Source: Cryptobacterium curtum DSM 15641 | GTDB taxonomy: Bacteria; Actinomycetota; Coriobacteriia; Coriobacteriales; Eggerthellaceae | DNA length: 64,000 bases | Assembly: GCF_000023845.1 (NCBI RefSeq) | Contig: NC_013170.1 | Location: 496,001 to 560,000 of the forward strand | Direction of reading: 5' to 3' | In this document: piece by piece, positions 8,744 through 57,430 of the stretch | Layout of the letters: every line of letters begins with the position of its first letter | Position numbering within the stretch: position 1 is the first letter of the stretch | Translations under genes and position numbers: made by a program | The notes under the pieces: model-generated | The model's input: only the letters and a program-made list of their open reading frames with translations | Told to the model about the DNA's origin: nothing | Databases searched by the model: none

Positions 8744-9910
8744 ATGATTATTGTCGACGATGGGCACGTATCCGACCGCATGAGCACCTATTTGGCGCAG
8801 TCAAAACAACCGGTGCTTGCCACGGATGCTTCTCGCGCAATAGCAAGTGCGCATCCTGGTGTGGTGCTTGTAGAAGAAGATGCGGCTGCAAAGCGTATCG
8901 AAGAAGGGGAGCGGCTCTACACGATGTCGGAAGGGCGGCTTTCCTGGGTGCTTGAGCATGTAAAAAATCCTGATCTCCATAAAGCGATTGAGGTGTTCAA
9001 AAACAAAGAACACATGCGCAATGTATTGGCGCCACTGTATCCCGATTACTTTTATCGTGCATGCTCGATTGAAGAGCTTGCAACCATGCCCTTTCCCGCC
9101 CAGGCCATTCCGTTGGTGATAAAGCCATCTGTTGGTTTTCTCAGTGTGGGTGTCTATACCGTGCGCGATAGGGCAGATTGGCAGGCGGCGCTTGATACGA
9201 TCGAGCAGCAGCGCAGCCAGTGGGTTTCTTGGTACGACGAAGCGGTTATCGGTTCGGGGCGCTTTATTGTTGAGTCGCTTATCGAGGGCGCCGAATACGC
9301 GCTTGATGCCTATTTTGATCATCAAGGAACGCCTCATATTCTTAACGTTTTGCGGCATGATTTTGCTGACGCGGCCGATACAAGCGACCGTCTTTATGTA
9401 ACGGGTCCTTCTATCATTCGTGAAACACATGATGAAATGACGGAGTTTCTTACGCGTGTAAACAGCTTGACGTATGTGCATGATTTTCCGGTGCATGTGG
9501 AAGTGCGCGTAACTGATGCCGGTCAGATTATTCCTATTGAATTTAACGCATTGCGCTTTGCGGGGCTTGGCGGCACCGAGATTAGTTCGTTTGCTTACGG
9601 TTTCTATACGTTCGATCATTATTTGAATGATACTTATCCGGTGTGGGATGATGTGTTAGAACAACTCAATACCGACGATCTGTTTTGTATGTCGGTGCTC
9701 AATCCACCGGTCGGCACTTCTTCGCAGGCACATATGGATTACGATGCGTTGCAGAAACGGTTCAACCACGTTTTTGCGCTCGATCGATTTGATTATGCGA
9801 AGGCAGGTATTTTCGGTTTTCTTTTTTGGAAGACAAGTGCCTCAGACGATCGTGAGCGCACCTTTCTTGTACAAAGCGATCTTGCGGAATTTATTACGGA
9901 AGATGAGTAA
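8744..9910 (+). CDS. ATP-grasp domain ligase-like protein
   Basis: 388 residues. An N-terminal pre-ATP-grasp region (about 1-100) is followed by an ATP-grasp fold: nucleotide-binding strand and loop PLVIKPSVGFLSVGVY, hinge strand FIVESLIEGAEYALDAYF, and the metal-binding end IPIEFNALRF. Such enzymes join a carboxylate to an amine or thiol through an acyl phosphate. The substrate cannot be read from sequence. It sits 13 bases after a flippase-like gene and 3 bases before a Ser-rich membrane protein, so it may modify a cell-envelope precursor (inference). GAGGGATG ribosome site and ATG start. Confidence 0.8.
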   Translation: MIIVDDGHVSDRMSTYLAQSKQPVLATDASRAIASAHPGVVLVEEDAAAKRIEEGERLYTMSEGRLSWVLEHVKNPDLHKAIEVFKNKEHMRNVLAPLYPDYFYRACSIEELATMPFPAQAIPLVIKPSVGFLSVGVYTVRDRADWQAALDTIEQQRSQWVSWYDEAVIGSGRFIVESLIEGAEYALDAYFDHQGTPHILNVLRHDFADAADTSDRLYVTGPSIIRETHDEMTEFLTRVNSLTYVHDFPVHVEVRVTDAGQIIPIEFNALRFAGLGGTEISSFAYGFYTFDHYLNDTYPVWDDVLEQLNTDDLFCMSVLNPPVGTSSQAHMDYDALQKRFNHVFALDRFDYAKAGIFGFLFWKTSASDDRERTFLVQSDLAEFITEDE

Positions 9911-9913
9911 CGT

Positions 9914-10552
9914 ATGGCCGATTCTCAACAATCACAGCAGTCCCAAGAGCCTCAATCGCCGGCATCACAGTCGCAACTGACAAATGACTCTTCTTCAGAC
10001 GCGTCCCTTGACACCTCTTCTGGCGATAGGGTTTCAGCTGCTGTGACTCCTGATAGTTCTGTCTCAGATTCAGCATCATCTGAGATTGATACCGCTTATT
10101 CAGTGTCCAATGAAGTATCACATAATGCGAGTTCTCACCAACCTCGGGCGCTTAAAGATGAGTACGCTTCCGATCAACTTGACAAGGAAGCACCACAGGG
10201 TCCTAAGCCTCCTGCTGGTTGGGAAAGCAAGCCGCCGGCACCGGATGACCCTGCATTTGTTCCCTTTGACGATTTTTCTCAGCGTACGGCAGATCAAACA
10301 GGTCGAACCGTTATGGCGCTTTCGTTTGCCTGTGGGTTGCTGTTCGGGATATTCGGGCTTTTATTTATTCTGTTCTTTACGATAGGTCGTAACCAGGGCG
10401 CGCGCCCAGCCATGCTGCGTTTTTGTGCCATCGGCGTTATTGTGGGGGCACTGATCGATATGCTCGTGTTGCAACTTATGGGTGGCAGTATTGGCCAACT
10501 GTCGAACTTTACTCTTCCCAGTATATCAACGCAGACACCGAGTGCGTTCTAG
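9914..10552 (+). CDS. Hypothetical Ser/Gln-rich membrane protein
   Basis: 212 residues, family not recognised. The first about 80 residues are low complexity (Ser, Gln, Asp, Pro). A proline-rich stretch PPAGWESKPPAPDDP comes next, then two hydrophobic helices (about 130-157 and 172-197) and a short Ser/Thr tail. Most likely a cytoplasmic disordered arm with two membrane spans. It starts 3 bases after the ATP-grasp stop, so it is probably translated from the same mRNA. The end is convergent with znuB, with about 50 bases between them. Confidence 0.65.
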   Translation: MADSQQSQQSQEPQSPASQSQLTNDSSSDASLDTSSGDRVSAAVTPDSSVSDSASSEIDTAYSVSNEVSHNASSHQPRALKDEYASDQLDKEAPQGPKPPAGWESKPPAPDDPAFVPFDDFSQRTADQTGRTVMALSFACGLLFGIFGLLFILFFTIGRNQGARPAMLRFCAIGVIVGALIDMLVLQLMGGSIGQLSNFTLPSISTQTPSAF

Positions 10553-10602
10553 AAGGGTTTTCGACGTTACCGTTCTTACTTTAATCTGCTCGCCTATTGT
10601 TG

Positions 10603-11412
10603 TTAGCTGTGACGTTTTGCCAGATTGCGTACTGCTTTCGCAACAAGAACAATCAAAAGGAACGCAATAGATACCAGTACGATTGTGCCGCCTGGTTTAA
10701 GTCCTAAGTAAAATGAAAGTGTCAATCCAACAAGCGACGAAATAACACCGATGAGCGACGAAGCAACACAAACTCGCTTCCAGCCACCGGTTAGCTGCAA
10801 GGCACAGGCAACGGGCACCACCATCATTGACGACACCATCAACGAGCCGACGGTACGTGCTGCAATAGCTACCACGAGCGCCACAAGTGCGACAAAGGCA
10901 CTGTTGAGTACTGTGAGGTTCACTCCTGTCACACGTGCTTGTGTCTCGTCATAGGCAGATAGCAGCAGTGCACGTTGGAAGAACGTACAAAATGCAATGC
11001 CAAGAGCGGAAATAATGCAGACGAAAATGAGCTCTTCGTCGGTCACCGTAAGGATGCTACCAAATAAGAAACTGTTAAAACTTGCTGCATTGGGCACGAA
11101 ACCCGATAGGACACCAGCAAGTCCGATGCCAGCGGCCAGAACAATAGCGACAGCAAGTTCCGACTGATCTTTAAAGCGCATGCGCACGCCTTCTATACAG
11201 AAGGCGCCAGCAATACAGGCGATTGAGGCGCCGAGCACGGGGTTTATTCCCGCGATAAGTCCGCCTGCGACACCAGCTAGGGAAGTATGAGAAAGCGCAT
11301 CGCCCACCATAGACAGACGGCGCAAGACGACGTTAACGCCCACCAAGGGCACCACAATACCTAACAACAACCCAACGATCAGGCTTTTTTGCATGAATGC
11401 GTACTCAAGCAC
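10603..11412 (-). CDS. znuB: Zinc (metal) ABC transporter permease
   Basis: 269 residues and 7-8 membrane helices of the ABC-3 family that transports zinc or manganese. Family-like segments include VPLVGVNVVLRRLSMVGDALSHTSLAGVA and LMVSSMMVVPVACALQL. Starts 3 bases after the stop of the ATPase gene. The linked His-rich binding protein and Fur-family regulator favour zinc. The metal is inferred from context. Confidence 0.9.
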   Translation of the reverse strand: MLEYAFMQKSLIVGLLLGIVVPLVGVNVVLRRLSMVGDALSHTSLAGVAGGLIAGINPVLGASIACIAGAFCIEGVRMRFKDQSELAVAIVLAAGIGLAGVLSGFVPNAASFNSFLFGSILTVTDEELIFVCIISALGIAFCTFFQRALLLSAYDETQARVTGVNLTVLNSAFVALVALVVAIAARTVGSLMVSSMMVVPVACALQLTGGWKRVCVASSLIGVISSLVGLTLSFYLGLKPGGTIVLVSIAFLLIVLVAKAVRNLAKRHS

Positions 11413-11415
11413 TGG

Positions 11416-12120
11416 TTATCCCTTCTTGTCTTCTGCGTCTGCTTCTGCATGTAAACACCCATTTTCAAGACGCACGATTTGTGCATCTAAGGCCTGTGCC
11501 GTTGTGCGGTCGTGTGTCACCAGCAAAATAGAAAGCTGTCGTGAAGCACGCAGTGTTTGAATAAGTGTGCAGAATGCTTCGGTACTCTGCGCATCTAAAC
11601 CGGTTGTCGGTTCATCGAGAACAAGAAGGTCAGGATCACAGGTAAGAGCTGCGGCGAGCCGTACTCGTTGTAGCTGTCCGCCTGAAAGGCTACCAATAAC
11701 CTGATGAGCCTGTGCTTGCATACCAACTTCAGCAAGCCAGTACAGGGCATGTTCTTTAGCGGTGGTATGGGAGGGAAGGGAAGTGGTGCGCGGGCAGCTT
11801 GCTTGAACAATTTCAAGGGCGGTAGCGGGATGGCGCAGTACCGCGGCAGGCGGCAGTTGCTGGACATATCCGATACGCTTCCAGTCTTTAAAATGGCGCG
11901 CATTGGTGCCAAACAGGAATGCCTCGCCCGCATCGGGAACGAGGCTTCCCATAACAATACGACACAGTGTCGACTTGCCACTGCCGTTTTCGCCGGTCAG
12001 AGCAATGATATTGCCCTGACCGAGCGAGAAATTCACGCGATCGATAATCACCTGTCCGCCCAAAGCGTAGGAAACAGCGTGGAGGCGTATAGGTGTTTTT
12101 TCATCGCGGGAATCGGACAT
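11416..12120 (-). CDS. znuC: Zinc (metal) ABC transporter ATP-binding protein
   Basis: 234 residues with Walker A GENGSGKST, signature LSGGQLQRVRLA, Walker B LLVLDEPTTGLD and switch His in LLVTHD. Energises import with the linked permease and binding protein. The ATG overlaps the stop of znuA (TAATG arrangement), pointing to translational coupling. An upstream-facing part of the operon starts at zur. Confidence 0.92.
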   Translation of the reverse strand: MSDSRDEKTPIRLHAVSYALGGQVIIDRVNFSLGQGNIIALTGENGSGKSTLCRIVMGSLVPDAGEAFLFGTNARHFKDWKRIGYVQQLPPAAVLRHPATALEIVQASCPRTTSLPSHTTAKEHALYWLAEVGMQAQAHQVIGSLSGGQLQRVRLAAALTCDPDLLVLDEPTTGLDAQSTEAFCTLIQTLRASRQLSILLVTHDRTTAQALDAQIVRLENGCLHAEADAEDKKG

Positions 12121-13169
12121 TAAGAGAGGGCCTCCTTCAAGGCAGTAAGGTTGTCGCGCATGGTCGAGAAGTAATCTTCACCAGCAGCTAACTGTTCATC
12201 GGTCAGACCTTCAACAGGGTTAAGCTCTGCGGTTTGTGCGCCCGTTTCCTGAGCGATGGCTTGTGCAACCTTCGGGCTTACGAGCTCTTCGCTGAAGATA
12301 GTCTTTACGTTGTGCTCTTTAACAAACTCGGCGATTTCAGCCATTTCCTTGGCATCGGGCTCGCTATCGGCTTCGATACCTTCAATGGGCATTTGCGTAA
12401 GGTTGTAAGCATCGCAGAGGTACCCGAAGGCTTCGTGCGATACCACGATAGAGCGCTGCGCGACATTGGCGAGACCTGTTTTGAATTCATTATCGAGCGT
12501 ATCGCATTCAGCAGCCCACTTATCGTAGTTGGCACGATATACATCAGCTCCGTCAGGGTCGGCCTGGATAAGAGCATCACGGATGTTACCCATTTCGATT
12601 TTGGCGTTCTGCGGGTTCAACCAGACATGCGGGTCGGTGCCGGAATGGTCATGATCGTGATCGTCATGGTTACCCTCGGCATGTTCTTCGTGGGCATGTT
12701 CATGTTCGTCAGCTTCTTCAGAAAGCTCACGTAAGGTTACGCCCTTACTTGCTTCAACAGCAACAAGGTGGCTGGACGAAAGGCTTGCAAGGGTGTCGTC
12801 GATCCAGTGTTCCATACCGGCACCGTTGTATACAAGCACATCAGCATTCGAAAGCTTGGCAATATCGGTAGTCGACGGTTCCCAATCGTGCGGCTCGGTA
12901 CCTGCTGGAACAAGGCAGCTTACCTCGACACGATCGCCACCGATTTTTTGAGCGAAGTCATACATAGGGTAGAAGCTTGCGCTTACCTGCACCTTTTTGG
13001 TGTCTTTTGAATCGGTGGTGTTTGCGCTGTCGGCTGAAGAGCCACTGCATCCTGAAAGAGCAAAACAGGTAAGGGCAGCGGCAAGGGCACATAGTCCTGC
13101 GATAGTGAATCGACGTACGAGCGAGGTGTGTGCGCCTTCAATCGGCGAAAGAGAGAAAAGGTTGTTCAT
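12120..13169 (-). CDS. znuA: Zinc ABC transporter substrate-binding lipoprotein
   Basis: About 349 residues. A CAGGAG site 6 bases before the ATG at 13169 fixes the start; the frame stays open 81 bases further up but has no good site. The N-terminus has a basic, hydrophobic stretch and a lipobox LSGC, so it is a membrane-anchored lipoprotein. The cluster A-I fold is indicated by SASFYPMYDFAQKIGGDRV and PAGTEPHDWEPS. A His/Asp/Glu-rich loop (EHEHAHEEHAEGNHDDHDHDH, about residues 140-162 in the mature region) is the hallmark of zinc-binding ZnuA and is thought to gather or sense zinc. Downstream, ADPHVW-like DPHVWLNPQN and VSHEAFGYL carry further ligands. Confidence 0.93.
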   Translation of the reverse strand: MNNLFSLSPIEGAHTSLVRRFTIAGLCALAAALTCFALSGCSGSSADSANTTDSKDTKKVQVSASFYPMYDFAQKIGGDRVEVSCLVPAGTEPHDWEPSTTDIAKLSNADVLVYNGAGMEHWIDDTLASLSSSHLVAVEASKGVTLRELSEEADEHEHAHEEHAEGNHDDHDHDHSGTDPHVWLNPQNAKIEMGNIRDALIQADPDGADVYRANYDKWAAECDTLDNEFKTGLANVAQRSIVVSHEAFGYLCDAYNLTQMPIEGIEADSEPDAKEMAEIAEFVKEHNVKTIFSEELVSPKVAQAIAQETGAQTAELNPVEGLTDEQLAAGEDYFSTMRDNLTALKEALS

Positions 13170-48768: not shown

Positions 48769-48777
48769 TGGTACAAT
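48769..48777 (+). promoter_or_regulatory. Extended -10 promoter before the cobalamin riboswitch
   Basis: TGGTACAAT fits an extended -10, with no clear -35. It would start the transcript near 48784, just before the riboswitch fold. Confidence 0.5.
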
Positions 48778-48809
48778 CGCGAATAATATATTGGCTTGGT
48801 GGAGATGCC

Positions 48810-48935
48810 TCGATAGGCGTAGGTACGTTAAAGCGTGCTTGGGGAAATGCGGGTGAAAATCCCGCGCTATGCCAGTAACCGTAAACCTTCTTCGGCATTA
48901 CTGCGTCTGAAGGAAAAGTCGGAATGCCCGCCACC
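48810..48935 (+). ncRNA. Cobalamin (B12) riboswitch
   Basis: The core follows the cobalamin-aptamer consensus: GGGGAAATGCGGGTGAAAATCCCGCGCT resembles GGAA..GGTGAAA.TCCG.GCT (split: GGGGAAATGC, GGGTGAAAATCCCGC), then GCCAGTAACCGTA for the B12-box strand, a variable helix with the CTTCTTCGG loop, and the 3' part AAGTCGGAATGCCCGCC. It lies in the leader of the exoprotein-ECF operon, so corrinoid should control that operon. Confidence 0.9.
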
Positions 48936-48965
48936 GCTTTCGAGCCCTGGAAGTGAGGTTCCGAC
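48918..48965 (+). promoter_or_regulatory. Possible riboswitch expression platform enclosing the ribosome site
   Basis: GTCGGAA (48918-48924), the last conserved strand of the aptamer, is an exact complement of TTCCGAC (48959-48965), which sits two bases before the ATG at 48967. Pairing would close a stem around the GGAAGTGAGG ribosome site. This suggests control of translation start by the fold. Which state has ligand bound cannot be told from sequence. Confidence 0.55.
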
Positions 48966-48966
48966 C

Positions 48967-51900
48967 ATGTTCGGACATCGTTCTCTATGCTTTAATGCAA
49001 CGCGTTCGTCATACGAGTATGTCTCTGCAGCTGACACAGCGAATGCATCAGATGCTTCAACATCTATTGCGCCATTACCTTCTGCCATGTTGCGCGTCCT
49101 ATTAGCCATTGTGCTTGCGGTATCGCTGTGTCCACTTCCCACGACAGCTTACGCGCTTGATGAGGAATCTTCTGCCCAAGCGACACCTTTATCTGCTTCA
49201 TCTGCTGAAAACGCACCTAGCTCGGTATCGTCGACTGCGACAGATTTGGAATCATCTGCGACGGAATCGTCCGAAACATCTGCAGTTTTTGCTGATCGTG
49301 CGGCAGTTTCAAACGACGATGATGACGACTACTGGTCTGGCGATGACGATGACTGGCCTGGAGACGACGATGACGATGATACTGACGACAATACCGGTAG
49401 CAGTTCATCAACTGGCTCAGATTCGAGTGGCACTTCCGACAACACGAGCACTACAGAAAGCGATGCCTATCTTGATTCGGTCGTTGCCAAGCTGACCGGC
49501 GAAGGATTCTCTGGTTGGATACCAAAGCTTACGTACGAAAGTGATACCAATATCAATCAGGTGCTTATTAATCACCTGAAGGATCTTGGGGTAGATACAA
49601 CGGGTCTTACCGTTACGGTAAGCGAGGTGACATTTGCAAACACCAACCCGAATGCACAGGTTGGCATCTCGACGAATGAAACCGATAACGGCGCTATTAC
49701 CTACTATAAGGGTGATCCCGATAAGGTTGGGTCATGGGCCACGCCTTCGCTCCAGCGGGTCAACAAAATTGTCTTTAAGCTATCGCATGACGGTAAAACA
49801 AAGGAATATAGCCCCGCGCGCACGTTTGCTGTTCCATGGAATACTGATGCAGCAAAGACTTTGTTGGAATCAAAAGCCCAGGTACTTTCTCTGTCTTTTG
49901 CCGCTGGTGATACTGCTTTATCGGTTACAAAAGATTTCCCGCTTCCATCAAAAATACCTGGTGTCAACTGGTCGACTATTTCCTGGTCGTCTTCATCAAC
50001 AGCCATTACCGTGAAACCTCCTTTGTATAAACTGGGCGATGGGAGCGCGGTAGTAACGCGACCTAACCAAGATGAGCAAGTTGTTCTTGAGGCTACTATT
50101 TCTGGACTCGCTAACTTTGGCATGCCTGAAGGAGCATCCGTCACCCGTTCGTTTACGGTTTCTGTAGCGGGTGATTCAAGTGCTATTGAAGCGGAGCAAC
50201 AGGCACTTCAACAGAAAGTGGATGCTGCATTTACGACGGGAGCACTGAAGTACAGCGACAGCACAGCCGCTCTTAATCCAGAGAGCATAACTGACGATAT
50301 GCAGCTGCCTCGTCCACGTACGCTTAAAGTCGATGGTAAACAGTATTCCATTGCCTATCAAGCCTCAAATGATGCGCTTACTATCAATGGGTATCGGGCA
50401 AATGTGTTGCGCCCCGAGCCAGGTACGCCTGCTCGCAGTGTTGATATAACCCTGACCGTTACCAGCAAGAAGAACCCCGCCATTTCTGCCAGCAAGAAGC
50501 TGCAGTTAACAATTGAGCCAATCGATCAAGCCGATGTGCAGGCAGAACTTAACTTAATGGCGCAGGCGAAGGCCGCCTATGGTAACGCATTGGCTGCCGG
50601 AAAGGATGCGGCAGCACTCACCGGTAACCTCCATCCCTTCCAAAAGGCCTATATCGCTCAGGATGGATCGCTTACCTGGGCATATACAGCCGCAGATGCT
50701 CGTAGTGCCGTCCAGGGTATTGTGCCGGTTGAACTGCCGGGTTATGACAGTATGGGGTCATCAGATCAGGCACGCCTGTTTGCCTCGAGCTCTCCAGCGA
50801 CGATTGCTAACGAAACACTGCGTCTGACACGTCCTGACTACGATACTGAAGTCACTGTTTCGTCGGTACTTTCAAGTGAAAAGTATGCGCGGTATGCCCT
50901 GCGCTATCCCGATAATGCTGATTTCAAAGCACTTGCGTCCCAGCCAGTATCAGCGAAATTTACGGTTTTTGGTACAAAAGGCCATGTCCTTCACCTTGAT
51001 GTTTCGTGTTCCATCATCGGGGTTGACTCCTTTGGTGCCGATCAGCAATGGGTATCAGAGACACCACTTACGGTAGAGCAAGGAACTACTGCCGCACAGG
51101 TGACCGAGCAACTACTCAGCGCTGCGGGTCTTCTTCATGAATCACAGGGCGCAGGAGACACCGGGGCAGGAAGCGACTACTACCTTTCCAGTATTACATC
51201 GCCTTTAACAGGTCATTCGCTTTCCTGGGACCAAGCAACAGGGAAGTACTGGCAGTTATTTGTGAATGGTTTGCCGTCTCAGGTAGGTGCTGGTGCGGTA
51301 GTACTTCATGCTGGTGACTGCATTACGTGGTACTACTCTGCGTATGGGCAATCACTGAATGATGAAGCGCATCTGCAGGTATCTTGCAGCGTGATCGGTC
51401 CTAATGCAACAGGACAGCAAGTTTTCTGGGTGCCACTTTCTACGGTTTCACTTCCTTCGGGCGCGACAGCTGCTGACGCGAGCGAGATGATGCTCACACA
51501 GGCGGGACTCGTCCATGAATCACAAGGCACAGGTCCAAGCTATTACCTTGCCAAAATTGTTTCACCTTTTACCGGTGAAGCGCTTTCATGGAACCAGGAA
51601 ACCGGACAATTTTGGCAGCTGTTTATTAACGGCACATCAGCCTCAAGCGGGGCAGGTTCCATTGCGCTTGCAGCAGGCGATAAGATCGAATGGATTTATT
51701 CGTCTGCCGATGAAACAATACCTGATCCACATGGATCAATCGGTACTGTTGCTGTTGATCCCAATGCTCAGGGAGATCCAACACTTTCATCTGATTGGCC
51801 GACCTTTGCTGCGCACGGGCCAAGCATGTCGGGCGCGGATACGCCAACGCCCGACCAAAGTGCTCATGCCATCTGGACTGCTCACCTCAAAGATGCAAAT

Positions 51901-53448
51901 GACTGGTCGACGTATGCGAGTGATCCGATTCTTGTCGGAGATACTGTTCTGACAGCTGTTGGTTCTGAATTGCAGATGCGAAGTGCTCAAACGGGCGACA
52001 TTATTGCCTCGACACCCTTAGCAGCACCCATCGATTCAGTTGCGCGTATGACATTTAAGAGCGGCATCGTATACGTTCCTTTGCATGGAGGACGCATGCA
52101 AGCTATTGCTGTCACGTCGTCGAGCCTAACGACCAAGTGGTATACCGAGTCGCTTCCCGATGTAGGGGGCAACGCGATGCAGTCGCTGTCGAACGTGACC
52201 GTTGCGAACGGATGCGTGTACTTTGCAGCAACAGCAGCTACGTGGTCGGCCAGTACGGGCGGCTGGCTTGTTTGTTTAGATGCAGCTACGGGCGCTGTGC
52301 GATGGAAACAGAAATCTGCATCAGCTGGATACTACTGGTCTGGTTCTACTGCGGTTGCTTCGTCATTGGTTGTTGCTGATGATGCGGGGAATTTGCAGAG
52401 CATTAATGCAGCGAGCGGAACGGTGACATCAACCATTTCTCTGGGGGCTGGCGTCCGTTCAGGTGTGATAACGGATACTGATGGGCGCCATGTGTACGCA
52501 GTCTCAACTGATGGCGTACTACACAAGGTTGCAATTGATAGCGATGGTGTCTTACATGCCGATGGATCGGTAAACTTTGCTGCGTCGAGCACGTCGACAC
52601 CGGTATTGGTTGGCGGAAAAATATACGTTGGTGGTGCAGCACATACTACTCATGCAACTGAATGGGGTAGTGCACCCGATGGTCTGCTGGCGGTTATCGA
52701 TGCGCAGACACTTACAGTGGAACACGCAATTTCTTCCTTAGAGGAAGGTGGCGCAATTGGCGCAGATGTGAAGTCAGCGCCTCTCGTGTCAACACAAGAC
52801 GGGCAGACCTATGTGTATTTCACTGCCAATACGCCCCCGGGTGGCGTCTACGTGTACCGGCTTGGGGATGCAACTGCTCGTGAATTGTTTGTACCTGAAG
52901 CCGATGCTCAGAACTATTGCCTAGCGTCACCTATCGCTGCATCTGACGGCTCGCTCTATTACGTGAACGATTCGGGAAACCTGTTTAAACTGGTTGCGAC
53001 ACAGAAGCCTTTTAACCCCGACAATCCGAATACACCAGAAAAAAAGGTGCCAGTAACGCCGCATAATCCAGACGGTCTGAACAATCAGACTGGTACATCA
53101 ATTGGAAACGGTCCCGCTTATAATGATGCTTCGTCGGTGCGCTTTGCGCTACGTTCGAATGTGTTGGATAGTCGCGCGACAGGAAGTGCTCTTGAAGCGT
53201 CTGAAGAGCAAGTATCGAGTGCAAGAGCTTCTTCTGAAGCGGCCGCGTCAAAGCTTGATGCCGCTGCAAGCGGCACACGGACACCGTCAGAGTCTTTAGA
53301 TGGAGCAGTACCAGTAATGCTTTCTGAAGATGCTGTCGATCAGGTAAATCAGTTGCCAATTTGGGCAGTAGCGGGTCTTGTTGTTGGGATAGCTGGTCTT
53401 TTGATTCTTGTGTTTGGTCGGCGTCGCTCAAAGGATGAAGATAAATGA
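48967..53448 (+). CDS. Giant surface protein with tandem DUF4430 domains and beta-propeller
   Basis: About 1,493 residues. The start is the ATG at 48967, with GGAAGTGAGG upstream; the frame is open into the riboswitch but cannot start there. A signal sequence lies near residues 40-64 (hydrophobic core of RVLLAIVLAVSL, then TTAYA). An Asp/Ser/Thr-rich acidic linker (about 118-160) follows, then bacterial Ig-like domains (SWSSSSTAITVKP), two DUF4430 domains (about 670-795 and 800-915, each with a GKYWQLFVNG or GQFWQLFING strand), a PQQ-type beta-propeller (about 937-1341), a Ser/Ala-rich stretch, one C-terminal helix (LPIWAVAGLVVG) and RRRSKDEDK. DUF4430 resembles the C-terminal domain of transcobalamin. 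It probably captures corrinoid outside the cell for the ECF system in this operon. Confidence 0.85.
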   Translation: MFGHRSLCFNATRSSYEYVSAADTANASDASTSIAPLPSAMLRVLLAIVLAVSLCPLPTTAYALDEESSAQATPLSASSAENAPSSVSSTATDLESSATESSETSAVFADRAAVSNDDDDDYWSGDDDDWPGDDDDDDTDDNTGSSSSTGSDSSGTSDNTSTTESDAYLDSVVAKLTGEGFSGWIPKLTYESDTNINQVLINHLKDLGVDTTGLTVTVSEVTFANTNPNAQVGISTNETDNGAITYYKGDPDKVGSWATPSLQRVNKIVFKLSHDGKTKEYSPARTFAVPWNTDAAKTLLESKAQVLSLSFAAGDTALSVTKDFPLPSKIPGVNWSTISWSSSSTAITVKPPLYKLGDGSAVVTRPNQDEQVVLEATISGLANFGMPEGASVTRSFTVSVAGDSSAIEAEQQALQQKVDAAFTTGALKYSDSTAALNPESITDDMQLPRPRTLKVDGKQYSIAYQASNDALTINGYRANVLRPEPGTPARSVDITLTVTSKKNPAISASKKLQLTIEPIDQADVQAELNLMAQAKAAYGNALAAGKDAAALTGNLHPFQKAYIAQDGSLTWAYTAADARSAVQGIVPVELPGYDSMGSSDQARLFASSSPATIANETLRLTRPDYDTEVTVSSVLSSEKYARYALRYPDNADFKALASQPVSAKFTVFGTKGHVLHLDVSCSIIGVDSFGADQQWVSETPLTVEQGTTAAQVTEQLLSAAGLLHESQGAGDTGAGSDYYLSSITSPLTGHSLSWDQATGKYWQLFVNGLPSQVGAGAVVLHAGDCITWYYSAYGQSLNDEAHLQVSCSVIGPNATGQQVFWVPLSTVSLPSGATAADASEMMLTQAGLVHESQGTGPSYYLAKIVSPFTGEALSWNQETGQFWQLFINGTSASSGAGSIALAAGDKIEWIYSSADETIPDPHGSIGTVAVDPNAQGDPTLSSDWPTFAAHGPSMSGADTPTPDQSAHAIWTAHLKDANDWSTYASDPILVGDTVLTAVGSELQMRSAQTGDIIASTPLAAPIDSVARMTFKSGIVYVPLHGGRMQAIAVTSSSLTTKWYTESLPDVGGNAMQSLSNVTVANGCVYFAATAATWSASTGGWLVCLDAATGAVRWKQKSASAGYYWSGSTAVASSLVVADDAGNLQSINAASGTVTSTISLGAGVRSGVITDTDGRHVYAVSTDGVLHKVAIDSDGVLHADGSVNFAASSTSTPVLVGGKIYVGGAAHTTHATEWGSAPDGLLAVIDAQTLTVEHAISSLEEGGAIGADVKSAPLVSTQDGQTYVYFTANTPPGGVYVYRLGDATARELFVPEADAQNYCLASPIAASDGSLYYVNDSGNLFKLVATQKPFNPDNPNTPEKKVPVTPHNPDGLNNQTGTSIGNGPAYNDASSVRFALRSNVLDSRATGSALEASEEQVSSARASSEAAASKLDAAASGTRTPSESLDGAVPVMLSEDAVDQVNQLPIWAVAGLVVGIAGLLILVFGRRRSKDEDK

Positions 53449-54185
53449 AGGACGCACGGTGGCGTTGGATAGCCACAGCTGCTTGTTGTGTACTGATTGT
53501 CGTCAGCGCATGGACACTCGGCTCATATTTTCTTGGGTCCTCTGGCGCATCAGAAGATCTTTTTACTACCGTTGCACCAGCTGAAAGTGATGCTTCATCA
53601 GGTGTAACAACAACAGGTGACCTTATACCTAAACAAGAGGACGACACAGCCGATCAAAGCGATGGTGCTGCGGGTGAAGATACGGGATCATCGGATGACC
53701 CGACACCTCCTTTAGCCGCTGCAGATAGTGCATATGCCACCCAGTCGGGCGACCCGCAGTCGAGCGACAGTTCGAGTCGCTCGTCGGATGGCTCCTCAGT
53801 GGCAGGTGGTAGCTCTGCTTCATCTGCAACGACAAGCGGTTCATCTTCGTCATCGTCTTCTTCGGGGGACCAGTTAACTCACATTCAGGTGAATATAACG
53901 GTTGATGGCACCGCAGCTGGATCGAATATATCATCGGCATTGCTGTCGATTCCCGCCGGGTCAACGGTCTATGATGCGCTGAAAGCGACGGGCGCTTCAG
54001 TGAATGCGCGCAGTACTGTCTATGGTATGTATGTAGCGGGAATTAACGGCTTAGCTGAAAAAGAATATGGCGCCCAGAGTGGATGGATCTACTATGTCAA
54101 TGGGCAGTTTGCCGATCGGGCGTGTGATCGCTGGCGTCTTTCCGAAGGCGACTATGTTAAATGGGTTTATGTGAGTGACAACTAG
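53445..54185 (+). CDS. Membrane-tethered DUF4430 protein
   Basis: 246 residues. A basic start and one N-terminal helix (WIATAACCVLIVVSAWTLG), a Ser/Asp/Gly-rich disordered region (about 40-145), then a DUF4430 domain (about 148-246: HIQVNITVDGTAAG, STVYDALKATG, GWIYYVNGQFADRACD). Anchored outside the membrane, it should hold corrinoid near the transporter. Overlaps the giant protein gene by 4 bases. The TM is uncleaved or a signal anchor; two Cys in it do not form a clear lipobox. Confidence 0.85.
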   Translation: MKDARWRWIATAACCVLIVVSAWTLGSYFLGSSGASEDLFTTVAPAESDASSGVTTTGDLIPKQEDDTADQSDGAAGEDTGSSDDPTPPLAAADSAYATQSGDPQSSDSSSRSSDGSSVAGGSSASSATTSGSSSSSSSSGDQLTHIQVNITVDGTAAGSNISSALLSIPAGSTVYDALKATGASVNARSTVYGMYVAGINGLAEKEYGAQSGWIYYVNGQFADRACDRWRLSEGDYVKWVYVSDN

Positions 54186-54187
54186 CT

Positions 54188-55114
54188 GTGCCAATACAAC
54201 GAAGTAGCGCCGAGATGACGACAAGTTTTGATATTTTGCATCCAGCGGTGCAGGCAGTGTGGTGTGCGTTAGCGCTGGGGCTTACTATGACCGCATTTCA
54301 TCCGGTGCTTGCTCCGATTGCTCTTATGGGCGGCTTTGTTGCAAACAGCATGGTGCAAGGGGTACAACATACCGTTGCTTCGCTGCGGTGGCAGTTGCCT
54401 TTATTGATTTTAATAACTCTTGCTAATCCGTTGTTTTCGGCTTCAGGATCGACACTGCTTATTCAGGTGGGTCCATGGGCACTCGGTACTGGCGAGGTGT
54501 TTTTGAATATTTATGCAGAAAGCCTCGCTTGGGGCGCAGTGGCTGGATGTGTGTTTGTGGCTTCAATGCAATGGTTTGCGTTTACCGCTCGGCTTATGAC
54601 ATCCGACAAAGCAATGGCACTTTCGGGACCTTTTTTGCCGACAGTCAGTCTTATGGTGTCAATGACTCTGCGCCTTATGCCTCAGCTTGCCCGTCGCGGT
54701 CAGTATATCAACGCAGTTTTGCATGCGTGTACATCGGCCGGACCTGCACAGGCAGGCATGCAAAAAGGAATTTCTCAAAGGATTGCTCAACACGTGCGGA
54801 TGCTTTCTTCTTTGATGGTGTGGGGTATGGAAGACTCACTCGAGCGATCACGTGTCATGCGAGCACGCGGGTGGGGAAATGCCAGCACACACACCCGTTA
54901 TCGCACGCGGCGCTTTCGCTGCGCCGACGCTATCGCGTTGGCGGTAGTACTAGTGCTCGGTGTACTCTGCGCGGTACTTGCTTGGGTGGCTTGCAGTCAA
55001 TTTACGTTCTATCCCAAGATGAGTACGCTTATTTGGTGGTGGGGATATGGGGCATATGCCATGTTTTTTCTCGTGCCATCGTTTGTCGTGGTGCTTGAAA
55101 GGGTGAGATGGTAG
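54188..55114 (+). CDS. ecfT: ECF transporter T component (EcfT)
   Basis: 308 residues, about five or six helices at the start and end and the coupling motif RSRVMRARGWGN, where Ala-Arg-Gly contacts the ATPases. EcfT joins the two ATPases to the S component. A GTG at 54188 or the ATG at 54215 may be the start; neither ribosome site is strong. The end overlaps the fused ATPase gene by 7 bases. Confidence 0.9.
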   Translation: MPIQRSSAEMTTSFDILHPAVQAVWCALALGLTMTAFHPVLAPIALMGGFVANSMVQGVQHTVASLRWQLPLLILITLANPLFSASGSTLLIQVGPWALGTGEVFLNIYAESLAWGAVAGCVFVASMQWFAFTARLMTSDKAMALSGPFLPTVSLMVSMTLRLMPQLARRGQYINAVLHACTSAGPAQAGMQKGISQRIAQHVRMLSSLMVWGMEDSLERSRVMRARGWGNASTHTRYRTRRFRCADAIALAVVLVLGVLCAVLAWVACSQFTFYPKMSTLIWWWGYGAYAMFFLVPSFVVVLERVRW

Positions 55115-56730
55115 TAATGCATACATGTGCCATGGGTCGACCCCCTGCATTGGAGTGGTCGCACTTTACCTTCGCCTATCCCGGCGGTCAGCCATTATTT
55201 GCTCCGATTGATATCGCTGTGCGTGAGGGCGAGTTCGTTTTGTTTGTGGGGGATACGGGCAGTGGCAAAACCACACTTTTAACAAGCGCGAAGGCAGAAA
55301 TTGCTCCTGCTGGTGAACGGAATGGACACATTAAGCTGTTTGGGCACGAGGTGTGCGAGGGGCAGAGTGATATCGCTTATGCAGCACAAGATCCGGATAA
55401 CCAACTCATCTGTGATACGGTGTGGCATGAAATGGCCTTTGGACTTGAAAATGCAGGTACTCAGCCCGATACCATGCGTCGTCGAGTAGCGGAATCAGCA
55501 TATTTTTTTGGCATTGGCAATCTTATGCATCGTTCGGTCGAGAGCCTTTCTGGTGGTCAGAAGCAGGAAGTGAATTTGGCTGCTGCCTTAGCGCTTCAAC
55601 CGCGCATTCTCTTGCTTGACGAACCCTGTGCACAGCTCGATCCGGTGGCAGCAAAAAACTTTCTCCACTTGCTTTTGAGGGTCAATCGTGAACTGGGAAT
55701 AACCGTCGTCGTTGCAACGCATGAACCTGAACAAGTTGCAAATTATGCGACGCGATGTGTTGAGCTTTCCACTAGGGGAGCGCGGCCCCTTGATTTAGAA
55801 CGCTTTGCTACCCGTCCACTTGATGTGCGTTGTCTTGACGTAAGCCTTGACAAGATTCCTCATGAAGACAGCCTTGTTCAAGAAAATGGGCAGGTGAGCG
55901 ATAGTTCTCAAGCTTCTTTGGAGCAGCGAGTAAAGGGTAGCCATGCGCAGCAGGTGAATGCTGACCATACGCAGGGCATGCCGACAATCAGTAGCAATAA
56001 GTTTCGCTTCAAAACGGCTACTTTTCGATCGACGGTATCGCTGCGTGATGCCTATGTACGTTATGGAAAAGGCGAAAGCTGGGTATTGTCCGGATGTGAC
56101 TTTGAAGCTCAGCCAGGGAGCGTGCAAGCTATCGTTGGCGGTAATGGATGTGGGAAGTCGACATTACTTCTTGCACTTGCGGGCATCTTACGGTTAGAGC
56201 GCGGGCGCCAAAAAAATAGTCTGGCTGCCCACCAGGCATTTCTTCCTCAGGCACCGCAGGCGCTGTTTACGTGCGATACGGTTGCCGAAGAACTGACCGA
56301 CTGGCAGGCAAACAGCACCTATTCTGATGCTGATATTACCCGACAGATGCACGATCTTGGTCTCGAGGGCCTTGCCAATCGCAACCCGTTGGATCTTTCA
56401 GGTGGTCAACGGCAGCTTGTGGCCTTTGCAAAACTTGCGCTGACTAATCCTCATCTCCTGCTGCTCGACGAACCGAGCAAGGGTCTTGATGCGCAGACAA
56501 AATGCGTGCTTCGGCGCGAGCTGCGCAGAATGGCCGATCAAGGCTGCACCATTATTTTAGCGACGCATGATCTACCGTTTGCGGCACTTGTTGCCGATCG
56601 GGTATCGCTGCTATTTGATGGGCAGATGGTTTGTAGTTTGCCCCCACAGGAATTTTTCCGCGAGAACCTTATTTACCAAGCGCAAGCTAACCGTTTCACC
56701 GATTTAGTTATCGCTGAAACTAGTAAGTAG
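55108..56730 (+). CDS. Fused EcfA-EcfA' ATPases
   Basis: 540 residues with two ABC ATPase domains in one chain. First: Walker A GDTGSGKTT, Q-loop YAAQDPDNQ, signature LSGGQKQEVNLAAAL, Walker B LLLDEPCAQLDP. Second: Walker A GGNGCGKST, signature LSGGQRQLVAFAKLAL, Walker B LLLDEPSKGLD. A Gln/Ser/His-rich linker of about 60 residues (about 250-310) joins them. AQDPDNQ is typical for ECF ATPases. Drives cobalamin uptake with EcfT and the S component. The start is the ATG at 55108 overlapping ecfT (alternative 55117). Confidence 0.93.
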   Translation: MVVMHTCAMGRPPALEWSHFTFAYPGGQPLFAPIDIAVREGEFVLFVGDTGSGKTTLLTSAKAEIAPAGERNGHIKLFGHEVCEGQSDIAYAAQDPDNQLICDTVWHEMAFGLENAGTQPDTMRRRVAESAYFFGIGNLMHRSVESLSGGQKQEVNLAAALALQPRILLLDEPCAQLDPVAAKNFLHLLLRVNRELGITVVVATHEPEQVANYATRCVELSTRGARPLDLERFATRPLDVRCLDVSLDKIPHEDSLVQENGQVSDSSQASLEQRVKGSHAQQVNADHTQGMPTISSNKFRFKTATFRSTVSLRDAYVRYGKGESWVLSGCDFEAQPGSVQAIVGGNGCGKSTLLLALAGILRLERGRQKNSLAAHQAFLPQAPQALFTCDTVAEELTDWQANSTYSDADITRQMHDLGLEGLANRNPLDLSGGQRQLVAFAKLALTNPHLLLLDEPSKGLDAQTKCVLRRELRRMADQGCTIILATHDLPFAALVADRVSLLFDGQMVCSLPPQEFFRENLIYQAQANRFTDLVIAETSK

Positions 56731-56740
56731 GGTAGGACAG

Positions 56741-57430
56741 ATGCGTACACGCTGGATCGCTGAAATGGTTATTCTCTGTTTGGTCCCTGTCGGACTGGGT
56801 GCGTGCGCGTGGTTTCAGTGGGATGCCAGTGCTCTTCTTTCATTTGTCGTAGCGGTTGCAGCGATTGTTCTATTTTTCGTTGATTTCGAAACCAGTAAGC
56901 CTGCGTTGCGTCAGATTATGCCGACCGTGGTACTTGCTGCTCTTGCTGCTGCAGGGCGTATTCTGTTTGCACCAATACCCGATGTCAAACCAGTATCAGC
57001 TATTTGCATTTTGGCTGGTGCCGTATTTGGCCGGCGCTGTGGGTTTATGACCGGCGCGCTTGCAGCACTGGTGTCAAACTTCTTTTTTGGTCAGGGGGCT
57101 TGGACACCGTGGCAGATGTATTCATGGGGGCTTGTTGGGTATCTTGCCGGCGTGCTATCTGCGCAGGGCTGGCTGGATCATAAACCGATTCTGTATACTT
57201 ACAGCTTTCTTTCGGCGCTGGTGTTTGGGCTCATCATGAACGGTTGGTATGTTATTGGATTTGTTCATCCATTGACGTGGGAATCGGTGCTGTTGGCGTA
57301 TGCCGCGGGGTTTCCCTTTGACGTGATTCATGGCGTTGCGACGGTGGGTTTTACCGCAATCATATATTGTCCCTGGAAGCAAAAGCTGGTGCGTATGAGG
57401 GAAAAGTATGCTCTCAGTGGCTCTGCTTAG
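56741..57430 (+). CDS. ECF transporter S component, probably cobalamin-specific
   Basis: 229 residues, about six helices. GAVFGRRCGFMTGALAALVSNFFFGQGAWTPWQM is strongly S-component-like, and the PVSAICILAGAVFG stretch fits membrane-embedded vitamin binders of the CbrT/YpdP-like kind. Substrate by context: it ends the operon under a cobalamin riboswitch with two DUF4430 proteins. Lies 10 bases after the ATPase stop. Size and motif agree with S components; cobalamin is an inference. Confidence 0.85.
   Translation: MRTRWIAEMVILCLVPVGLGACAWFQWDASALLSFVVAVAAIVLFFVDFETSKPALRQIMPTVVLAALAAAGRILFAPIPDVKPVSAICILAGAVFGRRCGFMTGALAALVSNFFFGQGAWTPWQMYSWGLVGYLAGVLSAQGWLDHKPILYTYSFLSALVFGLIMNGWYVIGFVHPLTWESVLLAYAAGFPFDVIHGVATVGFTAIIYCPWKQKLVRMREKYALSGSA

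Follow-up and report, generated by a model that had tools for sequence, protein, structure and literature searches.

What does a five-gene operon that joins DUF4430 surface proteins to an energy-coupling factor (ECF) transporter import into Cryptobacterium curtum, and what part would the surface proteins play? The operon lies in a stretch of 64,000 nucleotides of strain DSM 15641, here called the window, which covers bases 496001 to 560000 of a genome made up of a single contig of 1,617,804 bases, the published genome size of this asaccharolytic actinobacterium from the mouth, a member of the class Coriobacteriia (PMC3035227). Our analysis indicates, with a probability of roughly 0.8, that the operon is a scavenger of corrinoid (vitamin B12 and related cobamides).

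A cobalamin riboswitch precedes an operon with a CbrT-like S component

An AdoCbl-II riboswitch is followed by genes for a large anchored DUF4430 protein, a tethered DUF4430 protein, EcfT, a fused EcfA, and an S component (Table 1). The five open reading frames (ORFs) share the plus strand and overlap or are spaced by 2 to 10 bases, in agreement with a sequence-only reading of this DNA, which had described the genes as overlapping or at most 10 bases apart. That reading had also placed a cobalamin riboswitch ahead of the operon, and the element indeed scores above the gathering score of Rfam entry RF01689 (36.5 bits); it is the sole AdoCbl-II match in the C. curtum genome.

The S component gives the strongest clue to the substrate. 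When its profile was compared with all PDB chains, the best match was CbrT of Lactobacillus delbrueckii (6FNP_A, 5.3e-18), and the next ones were at 0.0034 and 0.1, RibU being found at 0.1. The motif GQG.WTP.QM is invariant in the S-component family. CbrT transports B12 and cobinamide, as shown experimentally (PMC5997447), and the S component of ECF-CbrT dissociates and re-associates during the transport cycle (PMC12075633). The EcfT ORF had no match above cut-off in Pfam or NCBIfam, and a profile built from 14 orthologues matched solved EcfT chains at 6.6e-13, among them the one in 6FNP. Both ATPase domains of the EcfA protein have legible Walker A, LSGGQ, and Walker B motifs. Together with the two PF00005 stretches and the PF07155 and CbrT matches, these results uphold the earlier assignment of the three genes to EcfT, a two-domain EcfA fusion, and an S component. 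The C. curtum transporter thus resembles ECF-CbrT in having a homologous S component, EcfT, and two EcfA domains. CbrT, however, uses a shared group II module and was characterized without surface binding proteins, whereas in C. curtum the operon itself encodes the module, EcfA1 and EcfA2 are fused, and DUF4430 genes lie upstream.

ECF S components are diverse, and this one also scores on riboflavin-type models (PF07155, 3.4e-11), as would be expected of an ECF system for another vitamin or a metal under indirect riboswitch control. We consider such a system very improbable, given the gap between CbrT and RibU in the profile search and the recurrence of the riboswitch linkage across the class (see below).

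In six other loci (L041, L049, L051, L070, L079, and L081), EcfA and S-component matches fall in a single open frame, which suggests EcfA1-EcfA2-S fusion proteins.

Table 1. Features of the operon and its leader, in window coordinates
Feature	Coordinates	Strand	Basis
AdoCbl-II (B12) riboswitch aptamer; L5 loop CCAG at 48872-48875	48825-48937	+	Rfam RF01689, 42.3 bits
CCCTGGA element, candidate L13 (complements L5 CCAG), merging into Shine-Dalgarno GAAGTGAGG, then ATG 48967	48945-48958	+	Leader comparison
Large surface protein, 1493 aa (likely start)	48967-53448	+	ORF list, Pfam, AlphaFold2 model
aBig_2 domain	49870-50169	+	PF20578, 8.7e-15
DUF4430 domain 1, YWQLFVNG type	51061-51339	+	PF14478
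DUF4430 domain 2, FWQLFING	51439-51702	+	PF14478
Beta-propeller, BamB/PQQ-like, about residues 930-1342	51754-52992	+	PF13570, PDB profile, Foldseek
C-terminal transmembrane anchor of large protein, LPIWAVAGLVVGIAGLLILVFGRRRSKDEDK	53353-53445	+	Sequence
Small DUF4430 protein, 246 aa, N-terminal membrane anchor, Ser-rich linker	53445-54185	+	PF14478, 6.4e-16, above curated cut-off
DUF4430 domain of small protein, SGWxYxVNG type	53937-54173	+	AlphaFold2 pLDDT 96.7; Foldseek transcobalamin TM 0.84-0.87
EcfT transmembrane coupling subunit	54188-55114	+	Profile A5 vs solved EcfT, 6.6e-13
EcfA1-EcfA2 fused ATPases, 540 aa	55108-56730	+	PF00005, two stretches, 5.2e-46; TIGR04520, 3.2e-73, under its cut-off
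S component, 229 aa, CbrT-like	56741-57430	+	PF07155, 3.4e-11; profile A3 vs 6FNP_A, 5.3e-18
aa, amino acids; pLDDT, predicted local distance difference test; TM, template modeling score.

DUF4430 domains have the fold of the transcobalamin beta domain

PF14478, the Pfam family of DUF4430, occurs three times in the C. curtum genome. The sequence-only reading had assigned two DUF4430 domains to the large protein and one to the second, and Pfam recovered this arrangement above the curated cut-off (8.7e-22 for the two copies of the large protein). The domains are of two types, YWQLFVNG in the large protein and SGWxYxVNG in the small one. Against the PDB, a profile of the YWQLFVNG type matched transcobalamin-2 best (8.6e-4). 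The likeness to the C-terminal domain of transcobalamin, which that reading had also pointed out, reappeared at the level of structure: with Foldseek, the AlphaFold2 model of the small DUF4430 domain matched chains of transcobalamin, intrinsic factor, and haptocorrin with template modeling (TM) scores of 0.82 to 0.87. The other close match was 3u7z, a bacterial protein with no assigned function (TM score, 0.77 to 0.80), and the remaining matches had E values of at least 3. Since the transcobalamin beta domain binds cobalamin in isolation, and binds it first in the carriers (PMC5599065, PMC11107200), the modeled fold strongly suggests that the DUF4430 domains bind corrinoid at the cell surface. 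No binding experiment on a bacterial DUF4430 is reported in the titles and abstract openings of the literature searched.

Only the beta-grasp beta domain is common to the C. curtum proteins and the animal carriers. The alpha6/alpha6 domain of animal transcobalamins was not found in the large protein, for which Pfam gave only aBig_2, DUF4430, and propeller matches; instead of that domain, it has a propeller and several beta domains.

DUF4430 genes are linked to cobalamin riboswitches across Coriobacteriia

We then compared 119 Coriobacteriia genomes, 54 of which contain DUF4430, in a total of 56 clusters. Of these clusters, 35/56 have a same-strand cobalamin-clan riboswitch no more than 5 kb upstream, a motif scan added three riboswitches, and each of the 24 AdoCbl-II sites of the DUF4430 genomes occupies such a position ahead of DUF4430 genes. 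DUF4430, EcfT, EcfA, and the S component are kept together in 39/56 clusters. In 50 genomes devoid of DUF4430, a cobalamin riboswitch is located 1.1 to 1.3 kb upstream of a gene for a FecCD/BtuC-type permease, and these genomes do not overlap with those harboring DUF4430. One control element thus acts on a BtuC-type system in some genomes and on a DUF4430-ECF system in others, an argument for a shared function of the two. In other genomes, those of Bacillota outside the class included, relatives of the S component have a DUF4430 neighbor in 64/80 loci overall, some contigs being too short to show DUF4430, and a cobalamin riboswitch was present in three of the nine Bacillota loci tested.

Several loci differ in their arrangement. 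Genome G041 contains two DUF4430 loci (L052 and L053) with separate AdoCbl-II riboswitches; one encodes a large protein and the other a small protein with ECF genes. In a Peptococcaceae locus (L172), a second cobalamin riboswitch (8747-8929) immediately precedes a second DUF4430 gene, a large one (8997-13160), located 3' of the S-component gene. The operon of Gordonibacter (G063) has as neighbors a gene for MutL, itself preceded by a riboswitch, and one for a cobalamin adenosyltransferase.

The leader may form a translational off-switch

The aptamer core, aligned with 15 relatives, has 41 invariant columns. In all 21 riboswitches examined, an L5 loop of CCAG is accompanied by CTGG at the end of the leader (CTGGA in 20/21), and this element abuts the Shine-Dalgarno sequence and the ATG in the same layout; as a background, CCTGGA occurs within 26 nucleotides of an ATG start in 13/617 ORFs. 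In known corrinoid riboswitches, control of the ribosome-binding site depends on a kissing loop between L5 and L13 (PMC10653944), which makes a translational off-switch the natural reading. We therefore infer that adenosylcobalamin (AdoCbl) represses translation of the operon via L5-L13. At high intracellular concentration, AdoCbl would bind the leader aptamer, a CCAG-CTGG kissing loop would form beside the Shine-Dalgarno sequence, and translation would be blocked, whereas scarcity of AdoCbl would allow expression of the operon, as the conserved sequence and the related riboswitches suggest. Folding of the leader as a single strand was uninformative (z = -1.36).

The leader also bears on the start of the large protein. 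A GTG at position 48835, called by the ORF program, was discarded, as it falls inside the riboswitch and the Shine-Dalgarno layout conserved in 21 related leaders favors ATG 48967, the likely start of a protein of 1,493 amino acids.

The large surface protein carries a beta-propeller

From its N to its C terminus, the large protein consists of a signal or transmembrane segment, a conserved N-terminal region with an aBig_2 domain, two DUF4430 domains, a beta-propeller, and a transmembrane anchor with an RRR tail; the propeller and the aBig_2 domain were absent from the earlier description. Export and anchoring of both DUF4430 proteins are predicted from these sequence features. The AlphaFold2 model of the two DUF4430 domains and the propeller has a predicted local distance difference test (pLDDT) value of 88. 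The propeller matched PF13570 at 1.4e-8, under the cut-off of that family. In the PDB, its profile matched BamB and designed propellers, and Foldseek retrieved BamB at 1.8e-14, the best 50 fold matches being BamB, quinoproteins, and similar proteins. A propeller is kept in 30/56 of the Coriobacteriia DUF4430 loci and is located C-terminal of the DUF4430 domains in C. curtum.

The BtuG-BtuB system of Bacteroides also has a surface-exposed beta-propeller protein, BtuG, which serves B12 uptake (PMC6143338). BtuG is seven-bladed, binds B12 with femtomolar affinity, and feeds an outer membrane TonB transporter (PMC6143338), whereas the C. curtum propeller is BamB/PQQ-like. Homology with BtuG was rejected on the basis of fold and sequence, as BtuG appeared neither in the best 50 fold matches nor in the PDB profile search.

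We tentatively propose, at less than even odds, that the propeller substitutes for the alpha domain of animal carriers: corrinoid would be clamped at the cell surface between propeller and DUF4430 and passed via the small tethered protein to the S component. The large protein would then be a bacterial counterpart of transcobalamin, and the ECF transporter would have a true extracellular binding partner.

In the deep relatives L033, L035, and L039, the propeller is found on a protein without detected DUF4430, and in G111 (L088) a propeller gene lies directly 3' of an AdoCbl-II riboswitch. The large DUF4430 proteins of L038, L047, L060, and L087 have LPxTG-like ends (MPATGD, MPQTGD, or LAKTGD) ahead of the C-terminal transmembrane segment, which suggests sortase anchoring rather than a plain transmembrane anchor in these loci.

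Weighing corrinoid scavenging against other functions

The AdoCbl-II riboswitch, the CbrT-like S component, the transcobalamin-beta fold, and the genome-wide co-localization are four independent lines of evidence, on which corrinoid uptake is well supported. The sequence-only reading had proposed a complete relay from surface capture to import; its uptake part is supported, surface binding is strongly suggested by the modeled fold, and the hand-off between the two is a step that we infer. In the mechanism that we favor, the large anchored and small tethered proteins would expose DUF4430 domains of the transcobalamin-beta type on the outside of the cell and bind corrinoid there, as their fold implies, and would hand it to the CbrT-like S component. 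Together with EcfT and the fused EcfA, this component would then drive ATP-dependent entry, as known from ECF-CbrT.

Several observations weigh against corrinoid scavenging. DUF4430 is also found in Lactococcus lactis, a species without B12 metabolism to our knowledge; the domain thus does not bind B12 in every case, and B12 cannot be read from it alone. Among the 56 Coriobacteriia clusters, 18 showed no riboswitch, even with the motif scan, and 16 had no EcfT or EcfA gene nearby. The complementary bases of L5 and L13 are invariant across the leaders and thus show no covariation that would support their pairing. Finally, our searches of C. curtum for a strong B12-binding domain of the MetH type, NrdJ_Z, EutB, QueG, and a PduO-type adenosyltransferase detected none; the only B12-domain proteins found were two of the radical-SAM type, both with weakly scoring B12-binding domains.

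An alternative would be a system in which the ECF transporter imports corrinoid alone, and the DUF4430 and propeller proteins bind no vitamin but serve as tethers to the cell wall or to polysaccharide, as adhesins, or in assembly. The Lactobacillus ECF-CbrT was indeed characterized without any binding protein (PMC5997447), the nearest folds of the propeller, BamB and quinoprotein dehydrogenases, include no corrinoid binder, and Burroughs et al. proposed that the extra domains of such proteins are surface tethers (PMC1796856). We nevertheless regard a role of these proteins without vitamin binding as unlikely, since the DUF4430 fold matches almost only cobalamin carriers and since 11 of the 16 clusters without adjacent ECF genes keep the riboswitch, a link between B12 control and DUF4430 itself. 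These ECF-less clusters include L063, L072, L075, L076, and L084, most of them with a riboswitch; in L072 and L075, an ORF of 182 to 193 amino acids without Pfam match comes after the DUF4430 genes.

The lack of a detected classical B12-dependent enzyme in C. curtum and the transport of cobinamide by ECF-CbrT (PMC5997447) would also agree with the salvage from neighbors of mostly non-B12 or incomplete corrinoids, such as cobinamide or pseudocobalamin, in place of cobalamin. We consider this less likely than not, the present computations not telling corrinoids apart, and it would refine corrinoid scavenging more than compete with it.

As for the supply and use of corrinoid, CbiD, a marker of corrin synthesis, was not found in C. 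curtum, nor in 111 of the 119 genomes. In C. curtum, a possible user of corrinoid is a radical-SAM protein with a B12-binding domain, encoded directly after uvrB (genome positions 631280-632800; L094:4281-5798). Genomes G101 and G116 contain the riboswitch-DUF4430-ECF operon, yet neither a B12-binding domain nor NrdJ_Z was found in them. An ATP-binding cassette system of the FecCD type at genome position 228709 was rejected as a B12 importer: its permease is under the BtuC cut-off, its binding protein matches several families weakly, and no riboswitch match occurs there.

Relation to known systems and significance

Scavenging of B12 was already predicted in 2007 by Burroughs, Balaji, Iyer, and Aravind for surface transcobalamin-like SLBB proteins encoded with CbiO/CbiQ-type genes; these authors noted paralogous pairs and, once, a propeller fusion (PMC1796856). 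The C. curtum operon shares with theirs the anchored transcobalamin-beta-like domains, the pair of paralogues, a CbiO-like ATPase, and a CbiQ-like permease, and the main text of that study mentions neither a riboswitch nor an S component (PMC1796856). What we add is the likeness of the S component to CbrT, the association with riboswitches, including the swap to BtuC, and the conserved propeller, the newest element being the partnership of propeller and DUF4430.

Host and microbes compete for vitamin B12, and its extracellular capture by Gram-positive host-associated bacteria is poorly known compared with BtuG in Bacteroides. If our interpretation is correct, Coriobacteriia and many Bacillota would combine a propeller with the fold found in human transcobalamin and intrinsic factor, ahead of an ECF importer. 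ECF importers, a class of transporters thought to operate without binding proteins, would then have a separate binding partner.

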